From positions 4,437,085 through 4,501,084 of the forward strand of contig NZ_DS544873.1 of the NCBI RefSeq assembly GCF_000154725.1: 64,000 bases of DNA, read 5' to 3'. A program made the translations under genes and the position numbers. Shown here piece after piece: positions 9,106 to 48,928 of this stretch (within the stretch, counting starts at the first letter, position 1; each line of letters opens with the position of its first letter). Source of the DNA: Kordia algicida OT-1 (lineage in GTDB: Bacteria; Bacteroidota; Bacteroidia; Flavobacteriales; Flavobacteriaceae). The notes below the pieces were generated by a model that was given only the letters and a program-made list of their open reading frames with translations, had not been told where the DNA came from and did no database searches.

Positions 9106-9117
9106 GGTTTATGTTTT

Positions 9118-30135: not shown

Positions 30136-30212
<77 letters not shown>

Positions 30213-30216
30213 AAGG

Positions 30217-30245
30217 AAGCCAGTTCAAAAAAGAACTGGCTTTTT
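30217..30245 (+). terminator. Terminator supplied by the island after tRNA-fMet
   Basis: A 10-bp stem (AAGCCAGTTC / GAACTGGCTT), 6-A loop and T-run directly after attL. It replaces the chromosomal tRNA terminator that now lies beyond attR. Confidence 0.85.
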
Positions 30246-30335
30246 AAGTATATAAAACTAAGCACTACAACATATTTGGAGAACTTCTCGATTACTTCAT
30301 CATGGCTTATTTATCAAAATATAGGCTAACAAAAA

Positions 30336-30364
30336 GGGTTGCATATTTTATTATCTGGGTTGCA
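30336..30364. repeat. Two direct GGGTTGCA repeats before the integrase
   Basis: GGGTTGCA at 30336-30343 and 30357-30364, 21 bp (two helical turns) apart, between attL and the integrase gene. The position fits arm-type integrase or excisionase binding sites. Confidence 0.35.
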
Positions 30365-30412
30365 ACAATTTCTTATCATTAATATTACTGAACAATTTAA
30401 AATTAGAGAGTT

Positions 30413-31627: not shown

Positions 31628-31674
31628 TTTGCACCTCTTTTTTTAAAAAATAAATTTTATATTGAAAAATTTAA

Positions 31675-32364: not shown

Positions 32365-34883
32365 TGAATACACCAAATAATCACTTCCAAGATTTTCCTA
32401 TTGAATTTAAAGAAATCAATCCATCAGATTTTCCAAATTATACTATAGCAAATAATGGGCAGAAAATAATAATAACTCCTAATGATAAGGGATATATAAG
32501 TAAACAGTTGTTAGAGTGTGTAGATAGGTCAGAAAAGAATACTGTAGTTATAAATGCAGGTGTAGGTCAAGGTAAAACAACTGCAATTATTAGAATATTA
32601 AACGAGTTTTATAATGATACTAATGAAGATTATGTAATTATAGTAGCATCACCATTTGTTAGTTTAGTTGAGCAGTACTTTAAAGAAATAGTTAATATAG
32701 GGATTGCTCAAGATGACATATATAGATATGAATACATAGGAGAACAACCAAGTATTACTTATTTAGACAAAAAGGTTCATATAATAACAGTCAATGGTAT
32801 ACTAGGAAATCCAGGGGAAAATGCTTTTATAAATTCTGAAGTAAAGAGGACTTACTTAAATAGGTTATCTAACTACTGTAAAGCTCAAAATAAGAAGGTT
32901 GTGTTAATTATGGATGAAATCCATGATGCAATACATAATTTCAAGCAAGAATACATTTTTAACTTATGGAAGTGGAAAAGTGTACTTCATAAAAATATTA
33001 TACTAAGTGCAACGTATAATGAAGCTTCAAAAGTGGTAATAGAGTATTTAGCTGAACTTACTGATAATAAGATTAAAATTATTGAATCAGAAAGAAAGGT
33101 AATACCAGAAAATCAAAGTGACTTATTTCTTCATTTTAATCCAGCAAATTACTACAATACAGTAAATGAGAACATTGTTTCAGTAGTTAGTGATATAATT
33201 TCTAGGGATAAAGAAATTGATATATTATGCTACTCAAGAAAATTAGCAGAATCTATAGTCAATGATAAGGATATAGGTGTTGGGGAAGTATTGTACTCTA
33301 AATATGAAGCTGAAGATATTAAGTTATGTACTACAAAACTTATTCAAAACAACAGAATTGGCAGATTAGAGGTTGAAGAGGAAGAAGAAAATACGAATAG
33401 GTTTGATAACACAAAGTGTAATGTTGGAACTAATTTTAAAACAGGTATCAGTATCACTAAAAGAAATCATGCCTTTATAATTATTTTACCACCAGAAAGT
33501 TCTAAACTACCTTTTAGTTCAGCTAGTAATATATTTATGGATGGTATTAATTCTGTAATACAGTCACTAGCTAGACAAAGAAAAAAAGGTGGAGAAATAC
33601 ATTTAATTTTGCCACCACCAGAGAAGTTCAATTATGATAGCCTACCATTTGATGGAATAAAAAAAGAAAAATTCATACAGTTCTATGACTTAATTTGTAG
33701 TCAAAAAAAGGTTAAAACAAAAGTTGAATATATTCCATATAATACTCAAAGGGAACTTGTAAGAGATTTTTATGAAAATACATTAATTGACAATATTAAT
33801 CTGCAAATACAAGAGGTAAACAGTCTAGATAGAGAAAATAGATTAAGCCTTAAGATGCCAGACTTTAAAAGCTATTTACTATTAAAAGGAGAAAAATATT
33901 TAGCATCAACATATAAGTTTTTTGGAAGAGATTTATCTTCATTCATTACTTATTCAGCTATTACAAATCAATTTTTAAATTGTAATTTTAAAGGATATAC
34001 AGGGAAGTATCCTTTAGGTTTTAGAAGTGGAGAGTTTCAAATAACATTAGATTTCTTTTTTGAAAATCATTATTTAAATGAAGACAAGTACTTAGTTTAT
34101 AACTATGGTTCAGACATGTATAGATACTTAGAGTTAAAGAATGACCTATTTAACAACTATAGATTATTTATTTTAAAACCTGATAATACACGTATTATCA
34201 TTAAAGAAGATAAGTGTAGAGATTTTGAAATTCAGCTATTAGGCTTCATGCATAGAAAATTACACCCATCCTTCAATAGTCATTTCTTAAATAATGAAGA
34301 TTTGATTGATTATAAATATACGAGAAGTAACTATTTCTTGAGTTGTGTAGCTAAAGCAGAAAATATTGATTTAGAAACAATTTCAGAAGATGAAGAACTA
34401 ACTAGGCGTATAAAAGCCTTTAAAAATTTAGGTTATTTTAGAAGAAAATTAATTGACTCTATTCAAAGCTTTACAGGTGACTCTAGGCAGTTTGATTATA
34501 TTTTAAACAAGCCAAATGAAGACTTTATAACTGAACAAGAACAAGCTAGATTTAATGAAATGATTGATTACTTAATCAACAGGGACTACTTCATTTCTAG
34601 AAATATTTTTGAGTTTAAACAGAGGTTTAAAACTACTTTTACATTCAGTCAAAAAGTAAAGTCTGTCTACACTAAAATGATGGAAGATTTTCTTGAAGTG
34701 GAAGATGATAGGTTACCCACAGGAAGACCTAGACCTAGAATAAAAAGAATCATACAAATTATCCCATTACCTAATCCAAGTAATACAATTGACCTAGTTA
34801 GTCATGCAGATTACAACTTTTCAGATGCATTTTGGGAAAGTAATACTTATGATGTTATTGATGGTAGATTGATAAAAAGGTAG
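32364..34883 (+). CDS. SF2 (DEAD/DEAH-like) helicase, coupled to the HEPN gene
   Basis: The 839-residue protein has Walker A AGVGQGKT (65-72), DEIH (184-187), SAT (215-217) and a motif VI-like QSLARQRKK near 400. After the two RecA lobes comes a 400-residue region without a recognised domain. The gene overlaps the HEPN gene by one base. It could be the island replication helicase or the sensor of a HEPN-based defence pair. The sequence alone does not decide. It is followed by a 49-bp dyad element. Confidence 0.8.
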   Translation: MNTPNNHFQDFPIEFKEINPSDFPNYTIANNGQKIIITPNDKGYISKQLLECVDRSEKNTVVINAGVGQGKTTAIIRILNEFYNDTNEDYVIIVASPFVSLVEQYFKEIVNIGIAQDDIYRYEYIGEQPSITYLDKKVHIITVNGILGNPGENAFINSEVKRTYLNRLSNYCKAQNKKVVLIMDEIHDAIHNFKQEYIFNLWKWKSVLHKNIILSATYNEASKVVIEYLAELTDNKIKIIESERKVIPENQSDLFLHFNPANYYNTVNENIVSVVSDIISRDKEIDILCYSRKLAESIVNDKDIGVGEVLYSKYEAEDIKLCTTKLIQNNRIGRLEVEEEEENTNRFDNTKCNVGTNFKTGISITKRNHAFIIILPPESSKLPFSSASNIFMDGINSVIQSLARQRKKGGEIHLILPPPEKFNYDSLPFDGIKKEKFIQFYDLICSQKKVKTKVEYIPYNTQRELVRDFYENTLIDNINLQIQEVNSLDRENRLSLKMPDFKSYLLLKGEKYLASTYKFFGRDLSSFITYSAITNQFLNCNFKGYTGKYPLGFRSGEFQITLDFFFENHYLNEDKYLVYNYGSDMYRYLELKNDLFNNYRLFILKPDNTRIIIKEDKCRDFEIQLLGFMHRKLHPSFNSHFLNNEDLIDYKYTRSNYFLSCVAKAENIDLETISEDEELTRRIKAFKNLGYFRRKLIDSIQSFTGDSRQFDYILNKPNEDFITEQEQARFNEMIDYLINRDYFISRNIFEFKQRFKTTFTFSQKVKSVYTKMMEDFLEVEDDRLPTGRPRPRIKRIIQIIPLPNPSNTIDLVSHADYNFSDAFWESNTYDVIDGRLIKR

Positions 34884-34884
34884 A

Positions 34885-34933
34885 TGTCCCAAAATGATAT
34901 TTTACTATATAGGGTAAAAGTCAAAATGTGACA
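34885..34933. repeat. 49-bp dyad element, copy A
   Basis: Arms TGTCCCAAAATGA and GTCAAAATGTGACA flank a central ACTATATAGG. It is the same length as, and 33 of 49 identical to, the element at 45723-45771. It starts 2 bp after the helicase stop and lacks a T-run, so it is probably a protein-binding or replication site, not a terminator. Confidence 0.6.
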
Positions 34934-35250
34934 AGTTTACTATTATCTCACAAAAGTTTCCCCTCCTCTTTAATAATACTCCTTCCCCTTCAAAATTCTA
35001 GTTATTTTGGCAACGCAGGAACTCTGGACGAGGACTACTTTTAAGTAGTGATTTTGTTTGTATTTATACATGCAAAATTACTAAAAAAATCTGACATTAT
35101 CAAGTAAATCAAGGGATTACAGGTTAATTTAAAGCTAATAGCCATTTCTTAAAATTACATCAAAAAAAAGCATTTTACTACTACAGTAAGATGCTTTTTC
35201 AGTTTAAAATGAATACACATTTATATAAATATTAATCTTTAAAAATTTAA
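34934..35250. other. Non-coding gap with a small palindrome
   Basis: No gene is seen. The stretch has a C/T-rich part, a perfect 16-bp palindrome ACTACTTTTAAGTAGT at 35034-35049, and a terminator-like hairpin at 35165-35199. A short untranslated RNA ending at that hairpin is possible but unproven. Confidence 0.5.
35165..35199. terminator. Hairpin terminator, possibly bidirectional
   Basis: A 15-bp stem with one G-T pair (AAAAAGCATTTTACT and partner), 5-base loop, T-run on the plus strand and A-run on the other side. It lies 51 bp before the Sak4-like gene. Confidence 0.65.
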
Positions 35251-36123
35251 ATGATGAACTTAAGACAATCAGAAAGGAAACGTGCCAAGATTAAAATGGC
35301 ATTACAAGGAAGTGCAGGAAGTGGTAAAACATATTCTAGTTTACTTCTAGCAAAAGGATTAACTAATGGAGACTTTTCAAAAGTTGCTATTATTGATACA
35401 GAAAATGGAAGTGCAGATTTATATGCTCATTTAGGGCAATATAATGTACTATCATTAGCTCCTCCTTTTACACCAGAGAAATACATTGAAGCTATTGAGG
35501 TATGCCTTAAGGCTGAAATGAGAGTTATTATTATTGATGGTATTAGCCAGTGCTGGGATGAACTTATTGATTTTCACAGTAAACTACCTGGAAATTCCTT
35601 TGCAAATTGGAGCAAAATAACTCCACGTCAAAAAGCTTTTGTAGATAAAATACTTCAAGCAGATGCTCATATAATAGCAACTATGCGTACTAAACAAGAC
35701 TATGTGTTAAATCAAAAGGATGGTAAGTATGTACCTGAAAAGGTAGGCTTAAAAGCTGTACAAAGAGATGGTGTAGACTATGAATTTACATTAGTGTTTG
35801 ATATAGATTCCAAACACTTTGCTACTGCTAGCAAGGATAGAACAAACCTATTTTCATCTAAACCTGAATTTAAAATAAATTCTGCTACAGGTAAGAAGAT
35901 ATTAGATTGGTGTAATAATGGCTTAACTATAGATGATGTGAAAGCTCAAATCAAAAACTGTAAGGATTTGGAGCAATTAAGATTACTCTACAAGCAACAT
36001 TATAACATTAAAGATTTGGAAGATGACTTTAGATTACAAAAGGAAACTATCCAATCTAAAGCTCAATTGTTAAACCCTAAAAACTTTAGTCAAAATGGAC
36101 ACACAAGTCATACACAAGCCTAG
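35251..36123 (+). CDS. Sak4-like RecA-family recombination ATPase
   Basis: The 290-residue protein has Walker A GSAGSGKT (20-27), IIDTENGSADLYA, and Walker B VIIIDGISQCWDEL. KITPRQKAFVDKIL and IIATMRTKQDYVL follow. This is the AAA_24 / Sak4 layout of phage single-strand annealing or RecA-like proteins. Its role would be recombination or repair of island DNA. Two Met codons open the gene (35251 and 35254). It overlaps the DUF3871-type gene by 29 bp. Confidence 0.85.
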   Translation: MMNLRQSERKRAKIKMALQGSAGSGKTYSSLLLAKGLTNGDFSKVAIIDTENGSADLYAHLGQYNVLSLAPPFTPEKYIEAIEVCLKAEMRVIIIDGISQCWDELIDFHSKLPGNSFANWSKITPRQKAFVDKILQADAHIIATMRTKQDYVLNQKDGKYVPEKVGLKAVQRDGVDYEFTLVFDIDSKHFATASKDRTNLFSSKPEFKINSATGKKILDWCNNGLTIDDVKAQIKNCKDLEQLRLLYKQHYNIKDLEDDFRLQKETIQSKAQLLNPKNFSQNGHTSHTQA

Positions 36124-37114
36124 TCTTTCATTAGTTCCTGTTACACCTGTTATTCAAAAAGAGGTTAGCACAATAACACTAGTTACAAAGAAGTACAAAC
36201 AGAACCCATTTATAGAGGCTAATACAAAAAGTGTTAGCCTCTCTCATTTACAAAAGGATTGTATAATACCAGTCTTTTCAAAGGACAATGAGAAAACTAT
36301 TGCACATCAAGAGTTTATTGAAGTAGTTCAGGATTCTGTAAGTAAAGCATTTTCTCATCATAATATAGATGTTCCAGAAGTGCGCATAAGTCATCAAATT
36401 AAAGGTAGAACACCTAGTGCAATACATAAGTCTGCTAAAGATTTGTTAGACCACGAAAAGACTATCTATTATGAAAGAATGGCATTCATAATTCGTGTAC
36501 CTAGTATTACTGAAACTATTAATGGAAATGAATTAGCCTTAACTATTGGTGGAGTGCGCGCATACAACAAGGAGAACCTCTATTCCAAAAAGTCAGTAGA
36601 GAAGTTTCAAGTGTTTATAGGCTTTCAGAATATGGTATGTTGTAACTTATGTATTAGTACAGATGGTATGCAGTCAGAAATGCGTGTAGGTAGTGTGAAT
36701 GAGTTAGCATTAAAAGTACAAGAGTTAATTGCCAATTATGATGCAGAAAAGCATTTAAAAGAGATGTTAGCTTTAACTGATTATAGCCTCACAGAAAAAC
36801 AATTTGCACAGCTAATAGGTAGGTCTAGACTATACAATTATCAACCAAAGAATGAAAAGATGCAGATTCCACAATTGCTTTTAAATGATGGGCAAGTTTC
36901 TACTATAGCTAAAGATTATTATCAAGATGAAAGGTTCTGCAAAAATGAAGATGGAAATATTAATCTATGGAATGTATATAATCTATTCACATCAGCTAAT
37001 AAGAGCAGTTATATTGACACTTTTAGTGATAGAAATGTAAATGCATTTGAATTTACAAATGGACTTAAAAATACCCTGAATGGTGATTCTAGCTATTCTT
37101 GGTTTTTGAGTTAA
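36095..37114 (+). CDS. DUF3871-type protein of Bacteroidota mobile elements
   Basis: The 339-residue protein resembles the DUF3871 / DUF932-like family by its middle (EVRISHQIKGRTPSAIHKSA, LTIGGVRAYNKENLYSKKS) and C-terminus (NLWNVYNLFTSANKSSYIDTF). Members occur next to Sak4-like ATPases on integrated elements. Biochemical function is unknown. It overlaps the upstream gene by 29 bp in another frame, so the two are expressed together. Confidence 0.75.
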   Translation: MDTQVIHKPSLSLVPVTPVIQKEVSTITLVTKKYKQNPFIEANTKSVSLSHLQKDCIIPVFSKDNEKTIAHQEFIEVVQDSVSKAFSHHNIDVPEVRISHQIKGRTPSAIHKSAKDLLDHEKTIYYERMAFIIRVPSITETINGNELALTIGGVRAYNKENLYSKKSVEKFQVFIGFQNMVCCNLCISTDGMQSEMRVGSVNELALKVQELIANYDAEKHLKEMLALTDYSLTEKQFAQLIGRSRLYNYQPKNEKMQIPQLLLNDGQVSTIAKDYYQDERFCKNEDGNINLWNVYNLFTSANKSSYIDTFSDRNVNAFEFTNGLKNTLNGDSSYSWFLS

Positions 37115-37118
37115 GTGA

Positions 37119-37156
37119 AGCTACCTTACATTATTGTAGGGTAGCTATTTTTTTTT
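37119..37156. terminator. Hairpin between converging operons
   Basis: A 12-bp stem with one G-T pair (AGCTACCTTACA and partner), TTAT loop and a long T-run on the plus strand. It overlaps the stop codon of the res gene and ends the Sak4-DUF3871 transcript. Confidence 0.75.
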
Positions 37157-39797
37157 GTGCATCAGTTCCTTTTATCATTAAATACTTCATACCACTAGCA
37201 CCAGCAATTTGTGATGCATATTCAGCTTTAGCCTTTACGATAGAATCATCAATTTTATTATCTCCCTTAACTTCAATAATTAAGTATTCTTCTTTTTCAG
37301 AATTTAATTTTACAAGGAAGTCTGGATAGTAACTTCTTACAGTATGAGATTCTGGGTCTATATATCTAATTAAAAAATCTGATTGTCCATGAGTTAACAT
37401 TCCTGTGAACCAAACTTTTTCAATTTCACCTGTTTTAATTAAGTTATAAAACATTTGAGATTCAGGTATAGAATCAAAGCAATAGTTGTCTAAATGAAAA
37501 GATTTGTTTTTGTAACTAGAGTATAAATCATCTTCTATGTTAGCAATTAATTCAGGTTTAGCTCTTAATGTGTAATATCCATCTTTTGGTTCTTTTACAA
37601 GCTCTATTTCTTCTTCTTCTTCTTTTGTAAAAGTATCAATGTCATAAAAAGATTCAAAGAGTTTAGGAATTACCCAATCATAAAGAAAATCATTGTAAAG
37701 GTTGACTTTTTCTAATACAGTAGGTAAGCCTTGTTTTGAATTTTCAAGTACTTTCTTAATCTCTAGACAGCTTATTTTTCTTAAATTATCAACTCCTTCA
37801 GGATGGTACAAATACCTTGCTATCTCTGATACTATTGTTAATTCAGAAAATACTCTTTGTTCTGTAAGCTCAATATCTTGTAATTTTCTAGAAGAAGTTA
37901 TATCTGTTATATCACGTTCAGTTCTTTTAATTCTGTATTTCTCAAAATTGAAAGTGTCAAATTCCAAATCAACCCCATTTATTAACTTTTTTTCTTTTAA
38001 CTGATGAAGCGTCTTTATCTTTTTGAGTTTTATTTTTACTGGTGGTGGAACCAATCTAACTTCTACCAACTCTTTTTCATCTCCAGCAGATGTTAAATCT
38101 TCTATAGTAAGCCTAAAGTTTTGTTCAAGTTCTTTTTCTAGTATATCTACATTTTCTTTAGATAAATACACCATACCTTTTTGTTGTACATCTGATATAG
38201 CTCTTAGACAACGCATTGTTGCTTGTAAAACAAAAACTTTAGATTTTGGAGACCTTAATAAACTTACTCCAAATAAAGACCTACAATTCCACCCCTCTTT
38301 TCCTTTATTAACTAATAGAATAAACTGCTTTTCAGAATTAGGTGTGTCTAGGTTTTTAAACTCCCTTAAATCATCATTTGTAGTTATTTTAGGGTCACCT
38401 ACATTAACCAATATTTTATTTAATGGTATTTCTAATTCAGACAGCACTTCTTCCACTAGAGGCTTTAATTCATTTTGTAGTTCATCTATTGAAGCTGCAA
38501 AAAATGCCATTTTAGGAAGCATTTCTTCGTACCTCTTATCTTTATGTTCATTCCAAAATTCTGTGATTGCAGTTCTAACAAATACTTTAGCATTACTTCT
38601 AACATTCTCAAAGCCATGTATTTTCACCTTTTTAAGGTATTTATTATCTATAGCATCTTTTAATCCATAAGCATAGACTACTTCTGGCAATAGCCTTTTA
38701 CCAACATATGGAGTACCTGTGTAATTATAACAACCAACTACTTTAGAACCAGCTTGTGAAAGAGCTTCAGCTAATTCATTAATAGTTACTCTTAAACTTG
38801 TTGCTGTTTTTCTAATACCAAAATCTTTTTCTAAAGTACTTCCAAAAGCATGGTGTGCTTCATCTAAATAGATTCCTAGCTGTTTTAGTCTAATTAGTTT
38901 AGCAAACCTTTGGTTAGAAATTAACTCTTGGTCTGTATTTATCTCAAAACCATATAAGTCCTCAAAATCTTTATTTAGGGACTTTGCTTTGTATAGAACA
39001 TCACTCTCATTAAATAGCTTTTCAGAAGCAGAATCTTCTTTTCTTTTTTGCTTTAGAATAATCTTTTGAGTGTTAGATATAATGATGTTGTATTTTGAGT
39101 TGTCTATTGCATTCAATGAAATACCTGTGTCATCTAAAAAGTGAAATTTTAGATGAGAATCTAACCAATTAATATATTCTGGAGGTACAACTTTAGCTTT
39201 GTCAAAAGTTTCAATTTCTTTTAAAGACATTAAAACAGTTTTATCTGGTGCAAACACTAAGGCATTATGACAATAGTTGGTGTTTTTGGGGTATTTATTT
39301 GCTAGTAAGAACTCATAAAAAATGGTAGTAGCCATTAAGACTGTTTTACCTATACCCATAGCTAAAGCAAAAATATAGTTTGGGTAAGATTGTTTAAATG
39401 CTTCTATTTGCTTAAAAATTTCTTCAAAAGCTATTTTATCATCATTTTGAAATTCTGATGGTCCAAAAAGTTCAAAAGTACCTAGAGTACCTTTTGATTG
39501 AGATACACCAATATCTTGTCTGCCCTCAAATTGGCTGGATTTATTATACCAATCTTCAAAAATCTCGTATAAATATCTGTTGTCTAAAAATTCTTTTAAG
39601 AACACATAAATTTCTAAAGCTTCAAATTGTGGTTTTCTTAACCAAGAATTTGCATTTTCAGAATTATTGAAGTTTAAAAACTTTCTTGTTAATGGGCTAT
39701 ATGCCTTGTATATTTTCTTTTTATTCTCATCATGAAATAACTTTAGATAAGTATAAAAAGGAAACTCAATTTCTGATTGTTTTCTTTTTTTAGCCAT
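37131..39797 (-). CDS. Type III restriction enzyme, Res subunit
   Basis: The 888-residue protein has a helicase core: Walker A AMGIGKT (146-152), DEAH in IYLDEAHHAFG, and motif VI-like QATMRCLRAI. A C-terminal PD-(D/E)xK nuclease follows (YYPDFLVKL ... LIIEVKGDN). This is the standard layout of type III Res, which translocates after Mod binding and cuts when two complexes meet. It follows mod by 3 bp and is the last gene of the XRE-helicase-mod-res operon. Confidence 0.92.
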   Translation of the reverse strand: MAKKRKQSEIEFPFYTYLKLFHDENKKKIYKAYSPLTRKFLNFNNSENANSWLRKPQFEALEIYVFLKEFLDNRYLYEIFEDWYNKSSQFEGRQDIGVSQSKGTLGTFELFGPSEFQNDDKIAFEEIFKQIEAFKQSYPNYIFALAMGIGKTVLMATTIFYEFLLANKYPKNTNYCHNALVFAPDKTVLMSLKEIETFDKAKVVPPEYINWLDSHLKFHFLDDTGISLNAIDNSKYNIIISNTQKIILKQKRKEDSASEKLFNESDVLYKAKSLNKDFEDLYGFEINTDQELISNQRFAKLIRLKQLGIYLDEAHHAFGSTLEKDFGIRKTATSLRVTINELAEALSQAGSKVVGCYNYTGTPYVGKRLLPEVVYAYGLKDAIDNKYLKKVKIHGFENVRSNAKVFVRTAITEFWNEHKDKRYEEMLPKMAFFAASIDELQNELKPLVEEVLSELEIPLNKILVNVGDPKITTNDDLREFKNLDTPNSEKQFILLVNKGKEGWNCRSLFGVSLLRSPKSKVFVLQATMRCLRAISDVQQKGMVYLSKENVDILEKELEQNFRLTIEDLTSAGDEKELVEVRLVPPPVKIKLKKIKTLHQLKEKKLINGVDLEFDTFNFEKYRIKRTERDITDITSSRKLQDIELTEQRVFSELTIVSEIARYLYHPEGVDNLRKISCLEIKKVLENSKQGLPTVLEKVNLYNDFLYDWVIPKLFESFYDIDTFTKEEEEEIELVKEPKDGYYTLRAKPELIANIEDDLYSSYKNKSFHLDNYCFDSIPESQMFYNLIKTGEIEKVWFTGMLTHGQSDFLIRYIDPESHTVRSYYPDFLVKLNSEKEEYLIIEVKGDNKIDDSIVKAKAEYASQIAGASGMKYLMIKGTDAQKKIATLQ

Positions 39798-39800
39798 AGC

Positions 39801-41591
39801 TTAATTATCTATTGAAATTTCTAATGATTCACTTAATAGGTCTGTTATTTTTACTCTGATAGTGCCAGCATTTTCAGGTATATCATATTCACCAATTACC
39901 ATTTCTTCTTTTTCAGGTATATCAACTACACTAGGCTCAAATACAGCATCATCATAATTAAAATCAACTTTTATAGATTCTACAAGCTCTTTCCAATCTT
40001 CAACATTTTCTTTCATAATAGAGAGCTTCTGTAATAAATTCATTGGATAGAATTGTTTAATTACTAGCTTGTTATCTTCTACTACTATTTCAGCTTCAGA
40101 ATCTCTTTTAAACTCTAGGTTAGACTTGTCTCTTAGTATATCTACAACCTCTACATCAATTTTGTATGGGTGTATTTCTTTTTGAAGTGTTGCAGCTAAA
40201 TCTGGTTCATGTCCCATACATACTAATAGTAAATTCTCTACTGGTTTATTGGGTTGTTTCTCAAATTTCTTTTGGAAAGATTTATAGTTGAACCCTGAAA
40301 TTAGTTCGTTTAAATCTGCACGAGTAGCTATTCTATTTACAGGCATAATTTTAACCATTCTACCATCTTTTTCACCATCATAAATTGTATTGTTTGGCAA
40401 TGGTTGTATCTCTAATGCTTGTTTTAATATTTCCTTAGCTTGTACAGGGTTTCTAAAGACATCGTAGTTATTTACATTATAAACAGAAAAACCTGTGTAG
40501 AAATCTTTTATTTTTTCTGTTTCTCCATCTTCATTTGTAAAATCCACATCAGGTACTTTAGATGTTATTTTCTCTCTGCTAATGTTTAGCCTTTTAGTTG
40601 TGGTTTCTATGGCTCCTAAATTTATATCTGCACCTATGAATTTTCTACCAAGTTCCATGGCTACAGCTTGTGTAGTACCAGAACCCATAAAACAATCAAA
40701 TACAATATCACCAGGTTTTGAAGATGCTTTTAAAATTCTTTCAAGTAGTTTTTTAGATTTTTGTGTTGGATATCCAGTTTTTTCACCTGGGTATCTTGCA
40801 GCTCTTTGGATATCTACCCAAAAATCTTCAGGTACTTTACCATTTGCATTTAACTCAATACTTTCAAAATTCATGCCTCCAGTGCCTATTACATTTCTAT
40901 TTGCTCTATCTAGACTACCTTCAGCATATGGTATTCTAATAGAATCTTTAAAGAACACATAGTTACCTGTTTTGGAATACCTCAAAATATTATCGTGTTT
41001 TTTAGGAAAATCACTCCCCACATTTGAAGCACCTGTATAGCACCAAATTATTTCATTTCTAAAATTACTTGCACCAAATATTTCATCCATTATTAATTGT
41101 AAATAATGAATTTTTCTATAATCAGCATGAACATAGATAGTACCTTTATCAGAAAGAAGTTCTTTTAATAATATTACACGCTCATATATAAATTGTAAAT
41201 AACTATCATTTGTCCAGATATCAGTATATTGTTTTTCTTCAAATGAAGTCCTATTATTCTCTATTTTTTTTCCTTTTAATTCTATTTTTCTTTTATAATC
41301 TGCTTTAGAATCAAATGGTGGGTCTATATAAATTAAATCTACTTTTCCTCGATATTCTTTTAAGAGGTGACTCATTACTTGAAGGTTATCTCCCCAAAAA
41401 ATCTTGTTCATCCAGCCATTTACTTCTTCACCATAATTTTCTTTTTGCTGTGCAGGATAGTACTGTGTAGATGTAAAAGGTCTTTTACCTTTCCAATGTA
41501 ACATTGGGTAACCTTTAATAGGTTCAAACTTGTATTCTTCTACTGTATCCAATTTCTTTTGAATATCTAGGTCTAATTTATCTTGTGCCAT
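39801..41591 (-). CDS. Type III adenine DNA methyltransferase, Mod subunit
   Basis: The 596-residue protein has the catalytic motif DPPF (90-93) before the AdoMet motif FMGSGTT (300-306), the beta-class order of N6-adenine methyltransferases. TGYPTQKSKKLLERIL also fits. The segment between and the C-terminal 250 residues should carry target recognition and Res contact. The recognition site cannot be read from sequence. It is 3 bp from res and 20 bp after the helicase-nuclease gene. Confidence 0.92.
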   Translation of the reverse strand: MAQDKLDLDIQKKLDTVEEYKFEPIKGYPMLHWKGKRPFTSTQYYPAQQKENYGEEVNGWMNKIFWGDNLQVMSHLLKEYRGKVDLIYIDPPFDSKADYKRKIELKGKKIENNRTSFEEKQYTDIWTNDSYLQFIYERVILLKELLSDKGTIYVHADYRKIHYLQLIMDEIFGASNFRNEIIWCYTGASNVGSDFPKKHDNILRYSKTGNYVFFKDSIRIPYAEGSLDRANRNVIGTGGMNFESIELNANGKVPEDFWVDIQRAARYPGEKTGYPTQKSKKLLERILKASSKPGDIVFDCFMGSGTTQAVAMELGRKFIGADINLGAIETTTKRLNISREKITSKVPDVDFTNEDGETEKIKDFYTGFSVYNVNNYDVFRNPVQAKEILKQALEIQPLPNNTIYDGEKDGRMVKIMPVNRIATRADLNELISGFNYKSFQKKFEKQPNKPVENLLLVCMGHEPDLAATLQKEIHPYKIDVEVVDILRDKSNLEFKRDSEAEIVVEDNKLVIKQFYPMNLLQKLSIMKENVEDWKELVESIKVDFNYDDAVFEPSVVDIPEKEEMVIGEYDIPENAGTIRVKITDLLSESLEISIDN

Positions 41592-41611
41592 ATTACAAAT
41601 GGTTAATAATC

Positions 41612-44521
41612 TTAATTTCTATTATGTTTTGGGTTGCAGTAAAACCTCATATCACATTCACCACATTGTTTGTCATTTTTAACAATATGAGAGTTGTCAA
41701 AGTTTTTACTTTCTATTTTTTCAACTATTTCATCAAAAGATTCTACAGTCTTACTAATAGTATGTTCATTTTTATTAAATGTGATATAAGGACTACTATT
41801 TTCCTCTTTAGGGTAATGCAAATGCATCTTACTTACCTTGTGTCCTGTTCTTTCTTCAACTAAATGTGCATAAACCTCTAGTTGTCTTCTGTACCTGTCT
41901 AATAAACCCCTTGTGAGTTCATCTGTAGCATTTACATCTGGTTTGCTTCCAGATTTAAAGTCTATGAGTTCTACTGTGTTATTTTCTCCTCTAATGAGGT
42001 CTATTGTACCTTTTAGTATATAATCTTCTTTAACAAGTGAAACATCAACTTCAGCTTCAACAATCTTGTCCCAATCATTACTATTCTTGTCTCTATAGTT
42101 TAAAATTTGTTTCAGCAGTGCTTTTCTCTGTGGTAAATGTAAATAAGATTTTTGCTGTTTAGTTAGTAGATGGTAATTAGTATTAAACCAAGCCTCAATA
42201 TTTTCATTAGTTAATGTATGTACTTCATCTTTAAGTACAGCTTTATGAATGTCTTCTATAGTTTGATGTAGCAATTGTCCACCTAAAACACCTCCAGTTC
42301 TTACTTCTGTAAACTCTAATTCCTTATAGAACTTATATTGTAAAGGACAGTTTTCATAAAGTAGAATATGAGAAGTAAAAGAATATTCGTGTTTTATATT
42401 GGTAGGCTTAATTTCTGCCAAATCATACTTTGTAATATCTACATTTTCATTTCTCCAATGAGGTGCTTTTGCATAACTATCCTGTAGTAATTTATGAGGT
42501 GAATTAACTATTCCTTTAGCATTCCTTGTTTCATAATTACCTAGTACCAATACATTTTGAGGTCTAGAAAATGCAGTATAATACAACCTCCAAAAATCAT
42601 AATATTTTACTTCTTCTAAAGGTTCAAAAGGTGGTTTGTGGTAATATTCTTCTTGTAGCAACTCATCTACATCATCATATTGTTTTCTTGGACCTTGTCT
42701 ATTAGTAGGCATACCAACAAATACAATAGGAAACTCTAAACCTTTAGATTGATGAATAGTCATAAAAGATACACAACCTGATGGAGCATATTCATCAAAA
42801 TCTTCAAACTCCTCTAAACCACCATCATTTAAAAATCTGAAAAATCTATTGAATAGATTTTGAAGAACTTTCTCCTTATTTTCAGGAGTTATTACAGTTA
42901 CATTGTACAAGTACTCAAACTTCCAAAGTAGCTTTGTGAATAAAGCTATATTATAAGAAGCTCTTAGGTCTGTTTTGTTAGCTTTTAAATCTACATTAAG
43001 GCAATCTGAAAACATTGAAAATTCTAATAGCTGATATACCAAAGCAGCTAGACTATAATTTGTGCTTTCAGTTAAAGTAAGATGTCTTTTTGCTTTATCT
43101 TGACACCATTGCAATAAAGCCTTATGTTTTTCTAAGTCTTGTCTTATTGCATTACCAAATTGCCTTTTACAAGAGTCATAATATTTCCAGATATCTAGTT
43201 TAGCAGTATCACTCCAAGCTAAAACATCAAATAAATCTGGGAAAATGAAAACTATAGCACCAATTAATAATCTAATTTCTTCTCTTTCAAAAAATAGTGC
43301 AGAACGTGGACTAAACACCTTAATTCCTCTTTCTTCTAAATATTCTGCTAGAGCATTAACCCTTTCACCTTTTACAGACTTAAATAAAAATGCAATTTGA
43401 TTTCTATCTTTTAAAACACCTTTGTTTTCAAGTTCTATTATAAATTGATATACTTCTTCAAAATAATGGTGTAATGATGCTTCACTAGATACTTTAATTA
43501 CTGTAGGTGCTTTAATAAAATTATCTTCACGAGGTATAATTGTTTTGTCAAACCTAAATGTCTTACCCTCTTTAGTCCAATCCAACTCATCCATCCAATT
43601 ATTATAAAAATCTATTATCTCTGGATGAGACCTATAATTTGTAGTTATTTTAATTTCCTTACAAGCTCCTTTCTGAAAGTTATCTGGAAATTCTAGGATA
43701 TTTCTAATAGTAGCACCTCTAAACCTATATAACCCTTGGTCATCATCACCTACAACACAAATATTATTATTTTTTGAAGCTATAAGTAAGATAATTTTCT
43801 CTTGAATAGTATTAGTATCTTGATACTCATCAATCATAAAGTACTTTATTTTTGACTGTATCTCATCTAATACATTTTGATTATCTTTTAATAGGCTATA
43901 GGTTTCACTTTGGATTGAAGAAAAATCTAACGCATTTTCTTCATTTAGTTTTTCTATGTATAGTTTATAGAACTCACCAATAACTGAAATATTAGCATCT
44001 TCAGCACTAATTAGTTCTTCAAAGTCTAAATTTTCCTCTCCAACTTTATTAATATAGTTAATTAATTTATCTGCTTTATACCAACTAGATAAATTATGCC
44101 CTCCTAAAATTTCTTCTGAATTTTCAATTGCCACAAAATCCCTCATATTTTGATACAAGAAAAACTTCTGGTCAAATTGGTCTAGTAATCTATAACTTCT
44201 TTTTAATCTAGTAAACTCTCTATATTCTTCTAAAAACCTTAAGAATATTGAATGCAATGTACCAATATACATTTCATTAAGATTTACCTTAATCTCTAAT
44301 TCTAGCAGTCTATTAGAAATACGAGTAACTAATTCTTTAGCAGCTTTTTCAGTAAATGTTGCTACCAAAATTTCTTCTGGTTTAGTCCCTTTTTGTATAA
44401 GATTAACTGTTCTTTCTACTAATGTTCTAGTTTTACCTGCACCTGGACCTGCTATAATTAAAACAGGACCTTCAGTAGTATCTATTGCAAGTTGCTGATA
44501 TGGATTATTTCTACTAGTCAT
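41612..44521 (-). CDS. UvrD-type SF1 helicase with AddB-like Fe-S nuclease end
   Basis: The 969-residue protein begins with a UvrD/PcrA core: Walker A AGPGAGKT (24-31), MIDEYQDTN, VGDDDQGLYRFRGA, TNYRSHPEI, SFMTIHQSKGLEFP and YTAFSRPQNVL. The C-terminal 250 residues hold a PD-(D/E)xK nuclease (VELIDFKSGSK) bracketed by Cys in YENCPLQYKFYKEL and by C953, C956, C962 (CX2CX5C). That is the four-Cys Fe-S pattern of AddB and Cas4-like nucleases. It overlaps the XRE gene by one base and precedes mod, so it belongs to the R-M operon. No separate AddA/AddB partner is present. Confidence 0.9.
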   Translation of the reverse strand: MTSRNNPYQQLAIDTTEGPVLIIAGPGAGKTRTLVERTVNLIQKGTKPEEILVATFTEKAAKELVTRISNRLLELEIKVNLNEMYIGTLHSIFLRFLEEYREFTRLKRSYRLLDQFDQKFFLYQNMRDFVAIENSEEILGGHNLSSWYKADKLINYINKVGEENLDFEELISAEDANISVIGEFYKLYIEKLNEENALDFSSIQSETYSLLKDNQNVLDEIQSKIKYFMIDEYQDTNTIQEKIILLIASKNNNICVVGDDDQGLYRFRGATIRNILEFPDNFQKGACKEIKITTNYRSHPEIIDFYNNWMDELDWTKEGKTFRFDKTIIPREDNFIKAPTVIKVSSEASLHHYFEEVYQFIIELENKGVLKDRNQIAFLFKSVKGERVNALAEYLEERGIKVFSPRSALFFEREEIRLLIGAIVFIFPDLFDVLAWSDTAKLDIWKYYDSCKRQFGNAIRQDLEKHKALLQWCQDKAKRHLTLTESTNYSLAALVYQLLEFSMFSDCLNVDLKANKTDLRASYNIALFTKLLWKFEYLYNVTVITPENKEKVLQNLFNRFFRFLNDGGLEEFEDFDEYAPSGCVSFMTIHQSKGLEFPIVFVGMPTNRQGPRKQYDDVDELLQEEYYHKPPFEPLEEVKYYDFWRLYYTAFSRPQNVLVLGNYETRNAKGIVNSPHKLLQDSYAKAPHWRNENVDITKYDLAEIKPTNIKHEYSFTSHILLYENCPLQYKFYKELEFTEVRTGGVLGGQLLHQTIEDIHKAVLKDEVHTLTNENIEAWFNTNYHLLTKQQKSYLHLPQRKALLKQILNYRDKNSNDWDKIVEAEVDVSLVKEDYILKGTIDLIRGENNTVELIDFKSGSKPDVNATDELTRGLLDRYRRQLEVYAHLVEERTGHKVSKMHLHYPKEENSSPYITFNKNEHTISKTVESFDEIVEKIESKNFDNSHIVKNDKQCGECDMRFYCNPKHNRN

Positions 44522-44814
44522 TATTTCTTTACTTCTGTTTTAATTCTTTTTAAAGCTAGTTTAATGGCATCAATAGCAACATTTTCTCCCTGTACATCTT
44601 CATATACTTTTTCACTAAGCCATAGGGTTAGTAACTTATTATAATCTATATCTAAAGCAACTGCTAATTTTTCAATTTGCTCTCTAGTAGGTTTCCTGTC
44701 ACCTTTTTCAATTTTACTTATTAAAGCAGTATCTACATCTACCTTATAAGCCACTTCTCTAAGTAGTAAACCTTTAGTCTCTCTTTTAGATTTTAATAAT
44801 TCTGATAGTATCAT
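44521..44814 (-). CDS. XRE-family regulator of the R-M operon
   Basis: The 97-residue protein has a Cro/CI-type helix-turn-helix (KRETKGLLLREVAYKVDVDTALISKIEKGDRKPTREQIEKLA), then a helical tail. It overlaps the helicase-nuclease gene by one base and is the first gene of the operon, so it probably acts as a C-protein-like controller. I could not identify its operator with confidence in the 499-bp upstream gap. Confidence 0.9.
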   Translation of the reverse strand: MILSELLKSKRETKGLLLREVAYKVDVDTALISKIEKGDRKPTREQIEKLAVALDIDYNKLLTLWLSEKVYEDVQGENVAIDAIKLALKRIKTEVKK

Positions 44815-45313
44815 TAGTAGTCAAATTACAACTTGTCAAAAGATGTCTAAAACTAATCTAATTTTCTGACAAAAAAAATTTTTGAAAAGAAAAAAATTAA
44901 CAATTATTCTGTGTGTGCTGCATACCTTGAGAAATACCCATAGCTTATCTAGGTTTAACAGACTCCCCACCCCAATCTGACACAGAGTTATTTTTTCGAG
45001 GCAGTATATATAAAGTTGATTTGTAAGGACTTTTTTCTTTGTTACACTTTGTTAGCATCAACAAATCATCATACTAATCTGTAGACTGCATTTCTAACTA
45101 GAACATTTAAGATATTTATTGAGTTTAGAATGTAAACCACCCCCTCACTCAAGCTCTGCACAACACAGACTAAATACCCTCACCAATTTGTGCAGATGAA
45201 TCCCATTTGTACCTGATAGTATTTTAATAGTATTTCATTCAAGGTGATAGTTGTAATGATATTCTATTAGAATAGTTAGTTAGGTTATTTCACAACTCAA
45301 AAATTTATTTATT
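44815..45313. other. 499-bp non-coding region between divergent genes
   Basis: No gene is seen. It must hold the promoter for the minus-strand R-M operon (a looser ATCTTTTG-like box lies near the XRE start) and for the 132-aa gene. It contains C-rich patches, a partly repeated CTGCAT / CTGCAC word, and a 15-bp palindrome at 45260-45274. It could also hold an origin or a small RNA, with no direct support. Confidence 0.4.
45260..45274. promoter_or_regulatory. 15-bp palindrome before the 132-aa gene
   Basis: TATTCTA-T-TAGAATA, a perfect dyad 39 bp before the start codon. The position and size fit an operator. Confidence 0.45.
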
Positions 45314-45712
45314 ATGGTTAGAATCATAGGTTACAAACAAAGAGAAAAAGAAGATGGAAATCCATTCTTTATTTTAGAATTACAAGGTGGTGTAGAGATG
45401 TTGATGTCAAAAGAGACCAATCAATACTATGCTACAGCAAAAAAAGCATTTGTGACTAGCACATTTGATGAGCCTACTTGCAAAGCTTTAATAGGAACTG
45501 AAATGCCAGGTACTATTGTAAAGAAAGAAGTTGAGCCTTACACTTATATTGTAAGGGAAACAGGAGAGGAATTGGTGTTAACTCATAGATGGGTATTTGT
45601 GCCAGAATCTAAAGAGGAAAGTAAACAAAATGAAGTTATAGACCAACTTATGGCAGATACTTCTGCATTCTCTCAAAATGGAGTTTCACAATTAGCTGAA
45701 CAAGCTATTTAA
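45314..45712 (+). CDS. Hypothetical island protein, 132 aa
   Basis: The protein is soluble and beta-rich in its first 100 residues (VRIIGYKQREKEDGNPFFILELQGGVEMLM, YTYIVRETGEELVLTHRWVFVPE), with a short disordered tail. I do not recognise it. Small proteins of this size near Sak4-like ATPases and RadC are often DNA-binding or SSB-like, but no OB-fold motif is certain here. It is followed within 10 bp by a 49-bp dyad element. Confidence 0.7.
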   Translation: MVRIIGYKQREKEDGNPFFILELQGGVEMLMSKETNQYYATAKKAFVTSTFDEPTCKALIGTEMPGTIVKKEVEPYTYIVRETGEELVLTHRWVFVPESKEESKQNEVIDQLMADTSAFSQNGVSQLAEQAI

Positions 45713-45722
45713 TTTTTATATC

Positions 45723-45771
45723 TGTCCCATTTTGACTTCTCACTATATAGGTGTCAGGTCATTTTGGGACA
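45723..45771. repeat. 49-bp dyad element, copy B
   Basis: Arms TGTCCCATTTTGAC and GTCATTTTGGGACA flank ACTATATAGG. It is the partner of copy A at 34885-34933, with the same length and outer arms. Confidence 0.6.
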
Positions 45772-45784
45772 GATTTTAATTTTT

Positions 45785-45828
45785 CGTGATTTGGTAATTC
45801 TACCATATAGGTATTATACCAGATTACG
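45785..45828. promoter_or_regulatory. 44-bp imperfect dyad before the RadC-like gene
   Basis: CGTGATTTGGTAATTCTACC and GGTATTATACCAGATTACG form imperfect arms around ATATA. The centre CATATAGG recalls the ACTATATAGG of the 49-bp elements. It lies 20 bp before the gene. Confidence 0.45.
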
Positions 45829-45848
45829 AGTTTTTAAAATCCAATCTT

Positions 45849-46283
45849 ATGAAAGTACGAGAAATAGAAGTGTCTTATTCCAATCAAGGAAATAAGAAGG
45901 TTACTGTAAAAAATAGTGAGACTGTGTTTGAAGTTGCTTTAGCTCATTGGGATAAGAATATCATAGAATATCAAGAAGAAGTGAAGTTAATGCTACTCAA
46001 TAGAGCTAATGTAATATTGGGTATTTATGATTTATCTAAAGGTGGAGTGGCTAGTTGCAGTGTTGATTTAAAAATCATATTGAGTATTGCTTTAAAAGGT
46101 CATGCATCTTCTATTGTGTTACTTCATAATCACCCATCAGGGAAGTTAGAACCAAGTAATAATGATAAGATTATAACTAAAAAACTAAAGAAAGCTTGTA
46201 GTTACTTAGATTTGGTATTATTAGACCATTTAATCATTACAAAGAACTCTTTTTACAGTTTTAATGACAACAATATCTTGTAA
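45849..46283 (+). CDS. RadC-like JAMM-domain protein
   Basis: The 144-residue protein carries the JAMM metal motif (LLHNHPSGKLEPSNND ... D in VLLDHLIITKNSFYSF) of the RadC / JAB family. It lacks the HhH N-terminus of chromosomal RadC, as usual for copies on integrated elements. Its biochemical role on such elements is not established. Confidence 0.9.
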   Translation: MKVREIEVSYSNQGNKKVTVKNSETVFEVALAHWDKNIIEYQEEVKLMLLNRANVILGIYDLSKGGVASCSVDLKIILSIALKGHASSIVLLHNHPSGKLEPSNNDKIITKKLKKACSYLDLVLLDHLIITKNSFYSFNDNNIL

Positions 46284-46485
46284 ATATTGCTGTGTGTGTA
46301 AGTGTAAGAATGCAGTTAAAATAGGCTCATTTTATAGTTTAGCTAGTTAATGCAGATATAATATTATAGCCAAAATGTAAATGTATTGAGTAAATATTTA
46401 TGTTCTGTAAGACTGCATTTGTTGAATATTCAATTATTCTAGCAAAATGAGACAAAAAACTGCTCTAACTAACTAATAGCTAAAA

Positions 46486-46767
46486 TTAGTTTTCAAATAC
46501 CTCTATATCTAGTAAGTCAGCAATATTGACATCAAGAGCTTTTGCAATTCTGAATAAAGTAAAGACTGTGGTATTTATGCGTCCACTTTCTATCCTTGAC
46601 ACATTAGAAGTGTCAAATCTACCATCAATTCTACTAGCTAAATCAACTTGAGTTAAGTTTTTACTTTCTCTTATTTCTTTGATTTTAACACCTAGATTGT
46701 GACGAGTTTTTTTTCTTAATTTATTTATTTCAGAATCTTTCAATATGCCATATATGAATATATTCAA
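46486..46767 (-). CDS. XRE-family repressor
   Basis: The 93-residue protein has a clear HTH (KIKEIRESKNLTQVDLASRIDGRFDTSNVSRIESGRINTTVFTLFRIAKALDV). No ATG is in frame. The start is TTG at 46767 or 46743. It is divergent from the gene at 46827, with a perfect palindromic operator between them, so it should repress itself and that operon. The 202-bp gap after it holds no gene. Confidence 0.88.
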   Translation of the reverse strand: MNIFIYGILKDSEINKLRKKTRHNLGVKIKEIRESKNLTQVDLASRIDGRFDTSNVSRIESGRINTTVFTLFRIAKALDVNIADLLDIEVFEN

Positions 46768-46792
46768 AGAGACTGATTATATTTGCTTTAGT

Positions 46793-46812
46793 TTATGCCA
46801 TAAGTGGCATAA
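46793..46812. promoter_or_regulatory. Operator palindrome TTATGCCA-TAAG-TGGCATAA
   Basis: Perfect 8-bp arms with a 4-base spacer in the 59-bp gap between the divergent XRE gene and the 46827 gene. A second ATATGCCATA half-site lies at 46744-46752 in the repressor gene's start region. Confidence 0.65.
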
Positions 46813-46826
46813 TTCAATTTAATCAT

Positions 46827-47234
46827 ATGGATATTTGTATTAATGAATTAATAATAGATGAATTTCAGCCTTTGTCCTTAAGTAAAATAAAAGATATGGG
46901 GAAGATAGATTTTGAAGGAAGAGAGTTCAATCTATACCATCTAATTCTTGGAACATTTGAGAAAATTTTTATTGATGGATTACAGGTTAATCACTTTGAA
47001 ATATTTACTCGAGAAGATAAATTAGTAAGATACCTTATTAATTTTGATGAGTTTAATATCAATGATGTATTTGCACGTCTACTTGTTTATTTTCCAGATG
47101 CAGAAGTTCTTACTAATAATGATGATAAGTGTATTTTAAAGGATATAAATTCATTAATTGAAATCAATAAGAAATACGATTCAGGATATATGGTAAAAGT
47201 TTCCAGCCTGTCAAATTTTTATAGTATGATATAA
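46827..47234 (+). CDS. Hypothetical cargo protein, 135 aa
   Basis: The acidic soluble protein is not recognised. It contains NHFEIFTREDKLVRYLINFDEFN and LLVYFPDAEVLTNNDDKC. The stop overlaps the next start (ATAATGA), so the two are co-translated. Control by the divergent XRE repressor is likely. A two-protein toxin/immunity pair is possible. Confidence 0.65.
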   Translation: MDICINELIIDEFQPLSLSKIKDMGKIDFEGREFNLYHLILGTFEKIFIDGLQVNHFEIFTREDKLVRYLINFDEFNINDVFARLLVYFPDAEVLTNNDDKCILKDINSLIEINKKYDSGYMVKVSSLSNFYSMI

Positions 47235-47659
47235 TGAACTTTATAAACAATATCCCATACAAGCTAGGTTCTTTTTTTGAAGAAAATAACATAGACCTAG
47301 AGCTTCGAAAGGAGTTTAATGCTACCAAACTATATAGTAGTTATAGATATTCTGAAATACATCTATTTGGTAAAACATTTGAGTCAGTTTGTTATTTATG
47401 GTTTATGGATAATAAGCTAGTAAATATAGAGTATAGGTTTCATAAGAAGCATATGCAATTATTTATAAACTCAATAAATGAAGAGCTTCCCAAAAACAAT
47501 CCATTAGATAAAGACCCTTTTGTAAAGGAGTACCAATACTATGTTTTTCAAGATGGTGTAGCCATACATATTATCAACCTAGACAGGAATTTCTTTTTAT
47601 TAAGAGTTTCAAATATGCCTAGTTTACCACGAATTAAAAAACAACTTAATCAACAATAA
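47234..47659 (+). CDS. Hypothetical cargo protein, 141 aa
   Basis: Not recognised. It starts NNIPYKLGSFFEENNIDLEL and has beta strands in the middle (IHLFGKTFESVCYLWFMDNKLVNIEYRF). The opening resembles that of the gene at 48483 (NKLPFKIGMHYENWELDL), so both may be one small family. It is translationally coupled to the gene before and 3 bp from the lipoprotein gene after. Confidence 0.65.
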   Translation: MNFINNIPYKLGSFFEENNIDLELRKEFNATKLYSSYRYSEIHLFGKTFESVCYLWFMDNKLVNIEYRFHKKHMQLFINSINEELPKNNPLDKDPFVKEYQYYVFQDGVAIHIINLDRNFFLLRVSNMPSLPRIKKQLNQQ

Positions 47660-47662
47660 TTT

Positions 47663-48430
47663 ATGAAATCAATTTTAAAATTTAGTCTTTTAATATTATC
47701 AATAGCTCTAGTTAGTTCATGTAGTTCTGATGATAGTGATAACAACCAAAATGAAATACAAACAGAGTTATTAGGGAAATGGCTTTTTGAAAACCCTAAT
47801 AATAATCCAACTGTAAACAACTCTTTTACATTTACTTCTAGTGGAAGTGTAACTTATTCGTATTGGACTGGTTCTGGGAATAATTATGATAATGAAACAG
47901 GAACTTATAGTTTTAATGGAGATGTTATGACAATGGATTTTCCAGAGAATGTTAATTTAACATATGTACAAAAGGTAGTATTTCTTGGGGAAAATGTAGT
48001 AGAGTTTCAATCTACAGGAGTATCTGGAGAAAATGCATATGAAGGAGATTATTTTAGAGATGGAGCAAGTGATTATAATACTATTCCTACTTTAAAAGAA
48101 TATCAACTAAGATTTACAGGTCAAAGCTCATCTAGCCAACAATACCCTATAAATATTGAGTATTATAGTGATGATGAAAATGGTCAAACTTCTACTGAAA
48201 TAGTAAATTCACAAACAAATACAGATGTAATTCAGTCTATTAATTTAGAAAGTGTAGATAAAATTGGATTTAAATATGATGTGTCAGGATATGAAGACAC
48301 TGTTGTAGATTTTGTAGAAATTAAAGATGTAGAATCTAATACAGTAATTTTTACTATTAGTTCTTTGAGTATTGAAGATAATCAAACTTTCACTTATGAT
48401 ATATCTGATGATAGCTATACTATTCAATAA
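47663..48430 (+). CDS. Lipocalin-like lipoprotein (island cargo)
   Basis: The 255-residue protein has a signal peptide and lipobox (LLILSIALVSSCSSDDSD). The next segment (LLGKWLFENPNNNPTVNNSFTFTSSGSVTY ... NETGTYSFNGDVMTM) is the lipocalin-like motif of Bacteroidota lipoproteins. A C-terminal beta domain follows. It probably sits at the outer membrane. Function unknown. Confidence 0.8.
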   Translation: MKSILKFSLLILSIALVSSCSSDDSDNNQNEIQTELLGKWLFENPNNNPTVNNSFTFTSSGSVTYSYWTGSGNNYDNETGTYSFNGDVMTMDFPENVNLTYVQKVVFLGENVVEFQSTGVSGENAYEGDYFRDGASDYNTIPTLKEYQLRFTGQSSSSQQYPINIEYYSDDENGQTSTEIVNSQTNTDVIQSINLESVDKIGFKYDVSGYEDTVVDFVEIKDVESNTVIFTISSLSIEDNQTFTYDISDDSYTIQ

Positions 48431-48454
48431 CTACAAACATTAATTTTAAATTAG

Positions 48455-48481
48455 CCACTTATTTTTAATAAGTGGTTTTTT
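48455..48481 (+). terminator. Terminator of the 46827-48430 operon
   Basis: A 9-bp stem CCACTTATT / AATAAGTGG, TTT loop and T-run, 24 bp after the lipoprotein stop and directly before the next ORF. Confidence 0.8.
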
Positions 48482-48482
48482 A

Positions 48483-48830
48483 ATGCACAATCTTATGGAA
48501 ATAAACAAATTGCCATTTAAAATTGGGATGCATTATGAAAATTGGGAGTTAGACTTAATTGTAGAAGAATTATGCAGTCAATATGAACTGTATAGATATG
48601 TAAAAGGAGATATAGTCACATTTAAAAATTATGAAGTAACAGATATTTTCCTGTATTTTAGTTTTGATGTATTATTTCAAGTAGAGCTTTTTATGGAGCA
48701 AGGTGATTTACCTTTTGTAGAATTTCATGAAGTAGAAAATGGACTATCTATAGGAGCAGTTAAATTGCCTGAATCTGGACTAATTCAACTAACCTATAAT
48801 CAGGATAAAATTTGGAGAGATATGCTGTAA
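48483..48830 (+). CDS. Hypothetical small protein at the island end
   Basis: The 115-residue protein may instead start at the ATG at 48495, as the first ATG touches the terminator T-run. It begins MEINKLPFKIGMHYENWELDLI and is similar in opening to the protein at 47234. It has no signal peptide. Function unknown. It is the last gene before attR. Confidence 0.6.
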   Translation: MHNLMEINKLPFKIGMHYENWELDLIVEELCSQYELYRYVKGDIVTFKNYEVTDIFLYFSFDVLFQVELFMEQGDLPFVEFHEVENGLSIGAVKLPESGLIQLTYNQDKIWRDML

Positions 48831-48831
48831 A

Positions 48832-48891
48832 AGGCATATAAATAGGCATACATTTTTTAGTAAAGATTATAATGTATTGATTTTTATGCCT
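48832..48891. repeat. AGGCATA repeats near attR
   Basis: Two direct AGGCATA words (48832-48838, 48844-48850) and one inverted TATGCCT (48885-48891) precede attR. They are candidate arm-type sites for integrase or excisionase. Confidence 0.35.
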
Positions 48892-48896
48892 GAAGT

Positions 48897-48928
48897 GTCA
48901 CTGGTTCGAGTCCAGTTCCCGCTACTAA
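48897..48928 (+). repeat. attR (32-bp copy of the tRNA-fMet 3' end)
   Basis: Identical over 32 bases to 30181-30212. Only the T arm and acceptor 3' strand are present, so this is not a functional tRNA. Confidence 0.92.

Follow-up and report, generated by a model that had tools for sequence, protein, structure and literature searches.

A UvrD–Cas4-like helicase–nuclease encoded with type III Mod and Res genes on an integrative island of Kordia algicida OT-1

Classical type III restriction-modification (R-M) systems of the EcoP15I type consist of Mod and Res only. Additional helicase genes have also been reported beside such pairs. For example, the commonest neighbours of UvrD–Cas4 (pfam12705) fusions are type III Mod and Res genes, with HTH or WYL regulators at some loci and a Dcm context at others; a defence role was predicted for these loci, and a recombination role was proposed for the Cas4-like domain (Hudaiberdiev et al., 2017; PMC5704561). 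Another example is the three-gene m4C type III systems, such as Eco86II, which carry an extra SF2 helicase gene whose function was left open (Murray et al., 2021; PMC8259958). In fact, the extra SF2 protein has been shown to be dispensable for Eco86II methylation and cleavage, and it is absent from the active, partly purified enzyme (Murray et al., 2021). No experimental test of a UvrD–Cas4 type III member was found in searches of the open-access literature.

The pairing of UvrD–Cas4 with type III Mod–Res has thus been known since 2017, and the locus described here, found in a window of 64,000 nucleotides (the whole stretch of DNA that was analysed) from Kordia algicida OT-1, is a further member. 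It is formed by four genes on the minus strand. The first gene of the unit (44521-44814; 97 aa) codes for an XRE regulator assigned to HTH_3 by Pfam, and it is followed by a UvrD-type SF1 helicase with a Cas4/AddB-like four-Cys PD-(D/E)XK nuclease (HEL; 41612-44521; 969 aa), by a beta-class amino-methyltransferase with DPPF and FMGSGTT motifs (Mod; 39801-41591; 596 aa) and by an SF2 ATPase with a C-terminal PD-(D/E)XK endonuclease (Res; 37131-39797; 888 aa). The XRE and HEL genes overlap by 1 nt (TAATG), HEL and Mod are separated by 20 nt and Mod and Res by 3 nt, and the four genes form one tight unit, in agreement with the open reading frames, coordinates, strand and junctions (-1, 20 and 3) given in a preliminary description of this DNA. 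As in type III systems generally, mod and res are adjacent within one unit, and their order is kept in relatives. A promoter scan returned fewer sites than in shuffled sequences. The DUF3871 and Res genes converge, and between them lies a strong hairpin (37119-37146; z = -4.0) that has a run of T on the plus strand and extends into the Res 3' end; it is likely a terminator of the plus-strand genes.

The locus shares with those of Hudaiberdiev et al. (2017) the domain fusion itself (a UvrD motor with a pfam12705 nuclease), the type III Mod–Res neighbourhood and, as in some of them, an HTH gene. Beyond that work, which dealt with neighbourhoods only, the present analysis adds an obligate linkage within one clade, a frame that stays constant while the Mod core is apparently exchanged, four Mod–Res partners unrelated to one another and a split-gene form. 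Like Eco86II, the locus has one more ATPase gene immediately 5' of mod and res; however, that of Eco86II codes for an SF2 helicase without a nuclease motif, whereas HEL combines a UvrD motor of SF1 with a four-Cys (Fe-S) nuclease and so falls outside the SF2 type described by Murray et al. (2021). Mod and Res share folds and motifs with EcoP15I-type R-M enzymes, to which HEL is here added. With AddAB, AdnAB and RecBCD the protein has in common the UvrD-type motor, the RecB-family nuclease and a four-Cys pattern like that of AddB, but HEL is a single polypeptide encoded with an R-M system and without a partner subunit gene; in fact, none of the annotated genes of the surrounding island codes for an AddAB/RecBCD-type second subunit. 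Gabija (GajAB) also possesses a UvrD-like helicase, but HEL has its own nuclease, and a GajA ATPase-TOPRIM nuclease is absent from the operon in the window.

In HEL, the Pfam domains UvrD-helicase, UvrD_C and PDDEXK_1 were recognised. Walker A and DEYQ of the motor, the nuclease residues D841, D854, K856 and Q880, and the cysteines C725, C953, C956 and C962 are invariant among 25 homologues, and the AlphaFold model (pLDDT 84.6) matches the folds of AddA, UvrD, RecB and AdnB. The protein had been described as UvrD-AddB-like with a four-Cys nuclease end; the four cysteines hold, but the motor is an intact UvrD/AddA-type one, and only the nuclease half is AddB/Cas4/DNA2-like. In Flavobacterium araucananum (L010, 4803-7725), HEL is found in two open reading frames that overlap at query residues 275-285, likely as a result of a frameshift or an assembly error. 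Mod contains an N6_N4_Mtase domain (PF01555, E 2e-52), its DPP and FMGSGTT motifs (IV and I of type III Mod) are conserved among homologues, and at the profile level it matches EcoP15I Mod as well as a second type III Mod of known structure. Res contains, according to Pfam, ResIII and TnsA-like endonuclease domains, and GxGKT, DEAHH and P825-D826...E842-K844, as expected of a type III Res, are invariant in its homologues. Sequence searches of the PDB with Res gave no significant match, relatives surfacing only by fold search, in which the AlphaFold model (pLDDT 78) matched LlaBIII and EcoP15I Res (4zcf_C), and the PADLOC match was weak. Therefore, motifs and fold identify Res as type III, although it belongs to a divergent clade.

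Linkage of HEL with Mod–Res was followed in relatives by a Res-anchored scan with one genome per species, which gave 31 loci, to which viral contigs added two. A locus was considered testable when its Res was full-length and sufficient DNA lay upstream, and 28 qualified; those left out were L008, L026 and L027 (contig edge), L038 (Res fragments only) and L037 (a deletion remnant). In all 28 testable chromosomal and viral loci, which span many phyla, HEL is located upstream of Mod and Res on the same strand, and the gene junctions are tight or overlapping in many of them. Because this order recurs in 28/28 loci, the arrangement is far beyond chance. In 14/14 plasmid records with a full-length Res, HEL likewise lies upstream on the same strand. 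Among 18 plasmid HELs (at least 42% identity), 17 lie beside a type III Mod–Res pair, 14 of them with this Mod–Res and three with other type III pairs (Priestia twice, Peribacillus). The 18th, on the cyanobacterial plasmid of Annamia (L042), is an intact HEL with only a Mod remnant; its candidacy as a free-standing HEL was weakened by the finding of this Mod N-terminal remnant downstream. Loss of HEL in L011 was also considered and rejected, since the 84,068-bp contig that carries Res also has HEL, about 11 kb further upstream. HEL–Mod–Res is thus a conserved core, and the linkage is obligate within this Mod–Res clade; the counts cover a clade picked by Res similarity, not type III systems at large. 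The assignment of the helicase–nuclease to the Mod–Res pair in the preliminary description is borne out by these loci and plasmid records, and the situation that it had named as fatal to its reading, a HEL usually separate from mod–res in relatives, was looked for and not encountered. On the contrary, its four-gene order including XRE does not extend to relatives: a directly adjacent HTH gene occurs in 3/38 HEL-bearing relatives, the four-gene unit was rejected as a conserved entity, and XRE is lineage-specific and outside the conserved core.

Both loci found when viral contigs were scanned with Res contain the full trio, and a scan of viral contigs with HEL gave no match. A phage genome carries, in order, an HTH gene, HEL, an extra gene, a methyltransferase gene and a large gene at the Res position. 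When 395 Bacteroidota genomes were sampled with HEL and with Res, only the genome of K. algicida OT-1 was positive; the clade is therefore rare, and the counts rest on anchored loci. In L037 (9494-10366), an in-frame deletion has left nothing of the operon but residues 1-168 of HEL fused to residues 765-885 of Res. Additional genes have been found inside the operon of some relatives. OLD/GajA-like ATPase-TOPRIM genes lie between HEL and Mod in L009 (4585-6705) and L016 (5991-8051), placing a Gabija-like nuclease beside a UvrD helicase within a type III operon, and L009 also contains a PLD-like protein (8717-9991). Other inserts are an Upf1-like SF1 helicase (L012, 5672-8041), a conserved 97-aa protein of no known family (L010, 9704-9997; L024, 9703-9996) and a GHKL ATPase (L030, 6082-8073), which we take to be reminiscent of MORC-type genes in R-M operons. 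Many truncated copies of this Res occur in the Enterococcus plasmid records H55-H66, in some cases, such as L048, with neither HEL nor Mod close by, and these plasmids appear to carry the system in a state of decay.

UvrD/Cas4-like helicase–nucleases have also been found 5' of three further, unrelated type III Mod–Res lineages. In Priestia, a HEL with 43% identity precedes Mod and Res of the PDLC03646/03654 type, and the same Mod–Res lineage is preceded in Athalassotoga by a HEL with 25% identity. In Peribacillus a helicase–nuclease lies before a PDLC03635/03651 Mod–Res pair, and in three Flavobacteriaceae genomes a divergent UvrD lies before PDLC03634/03647 Mod–Res; the one scanned in detail (L069) has the order UvrD, a separate PD-(D/E)XK gene, a GmrSD-like gene, Mod and Res. 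Another type of motor, an SNF2 ATPase in which no nuclease domain was recognised, replaces HEL in the PDLC03646/03654 lineage on plasmids of the E. coli/Klebsiella type and of Blastomonas. Two regions of this kind, with the SNF2 ATPase before PDLC03646/03654-type Mod–Res, are L072 (1575-11327), which also has an HTH gene, and L075 (1393-11309). A full-length Res of this lineage occurs in 25 plasmid records; the neighbourhoods of four of these were inspected besides those of Priestia, and a UvrD gene was found in the two Priestia records and in that of Athalassotoga. By analogy, the SNF2 ATPase at the HEL position would agree with the extra SF2 gene of Murray et al. (PMC8259958), and the distribution of these lineages suggests that such helicase genes joined type III systems more than once. 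In a broader scheme, which we regard as unlikely, type III systems would have a place 5' of mod for a third motor that can be exchanged, UvrD–Cas4 or SNF2, sometimes within one Mod–Res lineage. An enzyme that slides and cuts once would thereby become a processive machine that both cuts and shreds; this machine would dock on those portions of Mod and Res that stay constant, and the methyltransferase/target core would be replaced as a cassette.

The divergence of the components was compared by Mantel correlation of pairwise distances in 32 systems, Mod being examined also in steps of 60 residues. HEL distances correlate with those of Res (r = 0.89) and of the C-terminal part of Mod (r = 0.84), and the correlation with the Mod target region (TRD) is 0.16. 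In the steps along Mod, the correlation with HEL starts at r = 0.75 (residues 1-60), falls to 0.03-0.30 over residues 61-360 and returns to 0.65-0.74 over residues 361-596; stretches of comparable conservation elsewhere retain about 0.6 or more. The Mod core (about residues 61-360) thus appears, from these sequence comparisons, to be swapped by recombination as a cassette, residues 1-60 and 361-596 being constant, and joint inheritance of HEL, Res and the Mod ends would be the simplest reading. Because HEL co-diverges with Res and the Mod ends, not with the Mod core, it groups with the constant machinery of the clade, although co-divergence alone does not prove contact.

The operon is located inside an 18.7-kb island (30181-48928) bounded by perfect 32-bp repeats, of which attL (30181-30212) includes the tRNA-Met 3' end and attR (48897-48928) is identical. 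A tyrosine integrase (30413-31627, plus strand) is encoded next to tRNA-Met. Further genes of the island are of the AAA_24, DUF3871, RadC-like and DEAD-box types, and the proteins scanned included neither a recognisable relaxase nor a recognisable phage structural protein. In several genomes of the same genus, including G685, the flanks are contiguous and the site is empty. In G681, G680 and G684 this tRNA-Met site is occupied by unrelated DNA, of 9 kb flanked by exact repeats in G681 and of about 35 kb in G680. Therefore, with the site empty in some congeners and filled by other DNA in others, the operon is cargo in a tRNA-Met integration hotspot.

As to function, we give about even chances to the reading that HEL, Mod and Res are the three components of a type III R-M system, which has XRE as its local regulator and an integrative island as its carrier, and in which HEL degrades phage DNA cut by Mod–Res; the post-cleavage degradation proposed in the preliminary description is plausible. 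In this predicted defence, Mod would methylate one strand of an asymmetric site, and Mod–Res would bind unmodified invading DNA, undergo an ATP-driven switch, slide and cut. HEL would then load on the ends made by Mod–Res and unwind them as a UvrD/AddA-type 3'-5' motor, and its Fe-S PD-(D/E)XK nuclease would degrade the strands, leaving the phage unable to religate or recombine its cut genome, while XRE probably serves to postpone or restrain expression upon entry of the island into a new host. Consistent with such degradation are the linkage of HEL with Mod–Res (28/28, 14/14 and 17/18), the invariance of all HEL catalytic residues, the resemblance of its fold to the end-resecting AddAB, RecB and AdnAB, and the presence of helicase–nucleases 5' of three unrelated Mod–Res lineages. 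That HEL co-diverges with Res and the Mod ends also points this way, but the same tight co-divergence is expected if HEL is a core subunit. A somewhat unlikely alternative is, in fact, that HEL is a structural third subunit which docks on Res and the terminal domains of Mod and is required for cleavage, for instance through processive translocation between sites. The parallel divergence of HEL with Res and the N- and C-terminal parts of Mod would fit such docking, as would the strict gene order and the tight or overlapping junctions in many loci; however, co-inheritance as a block also yields parallel divergence, and known type III enzymes function as Mod2Res. Moreover, the SF2 counterpart in Eco86II is dispensable for cleavage and methylation and missing from the partly purified enzyme (PMC8259958), which by analogy argues against a required subunit and suggests an accessory step.

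Degradation of cut phage DNA is in turn weakened by the SNF2 ATPase at the same position, since without a recognised nuclease domain the role shared by these proteins may be translocation or remodelling, and by the intact HEL with only a Mod remnant in L042, which may indicate a separate role for HEL. Another difficulty is that hosts usually encode RecBCD or AddAB already, and this bears equally on an improbable explanation in which HEL would protect or repair the host by resecting Mod–Res breaks in its own chromosome into recombination, lowering the cost of carriage. An AddB/Cas4-type nuclease with a UvrD motor would suit such repair, and the apparently frequent exchange of the Mod core would leave the host with undermethylated sites, but nothing ties HEL to host recombination over degradation; a recombination role of the Cas4-like domain was proposed by Hudaiberdiev et al. 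(PMC5704561). Finally, the location on a mobile island and the other defence genes (OLD/GajA-like, PLD, GHKL and Upf1-like) inside the operon of some relatives could suggest that HEL is a passenger hitch-hiking with Mod–Res in mobile DNA. This is disfavoured and very improbable, given that the inserts vary whereas HEL is constant with all its catalytic residues, and that HEL-type genes pair with four unrelated Mod–Res lineages.

The two earlier papers left unexplained why some type III systems have an extra helicase gene. The co-divergence places this gene in the constant machinery of the present clade and makes the three-gene operon a useful test case, and an interchangeable Mod core would offer a route to new target specificities.
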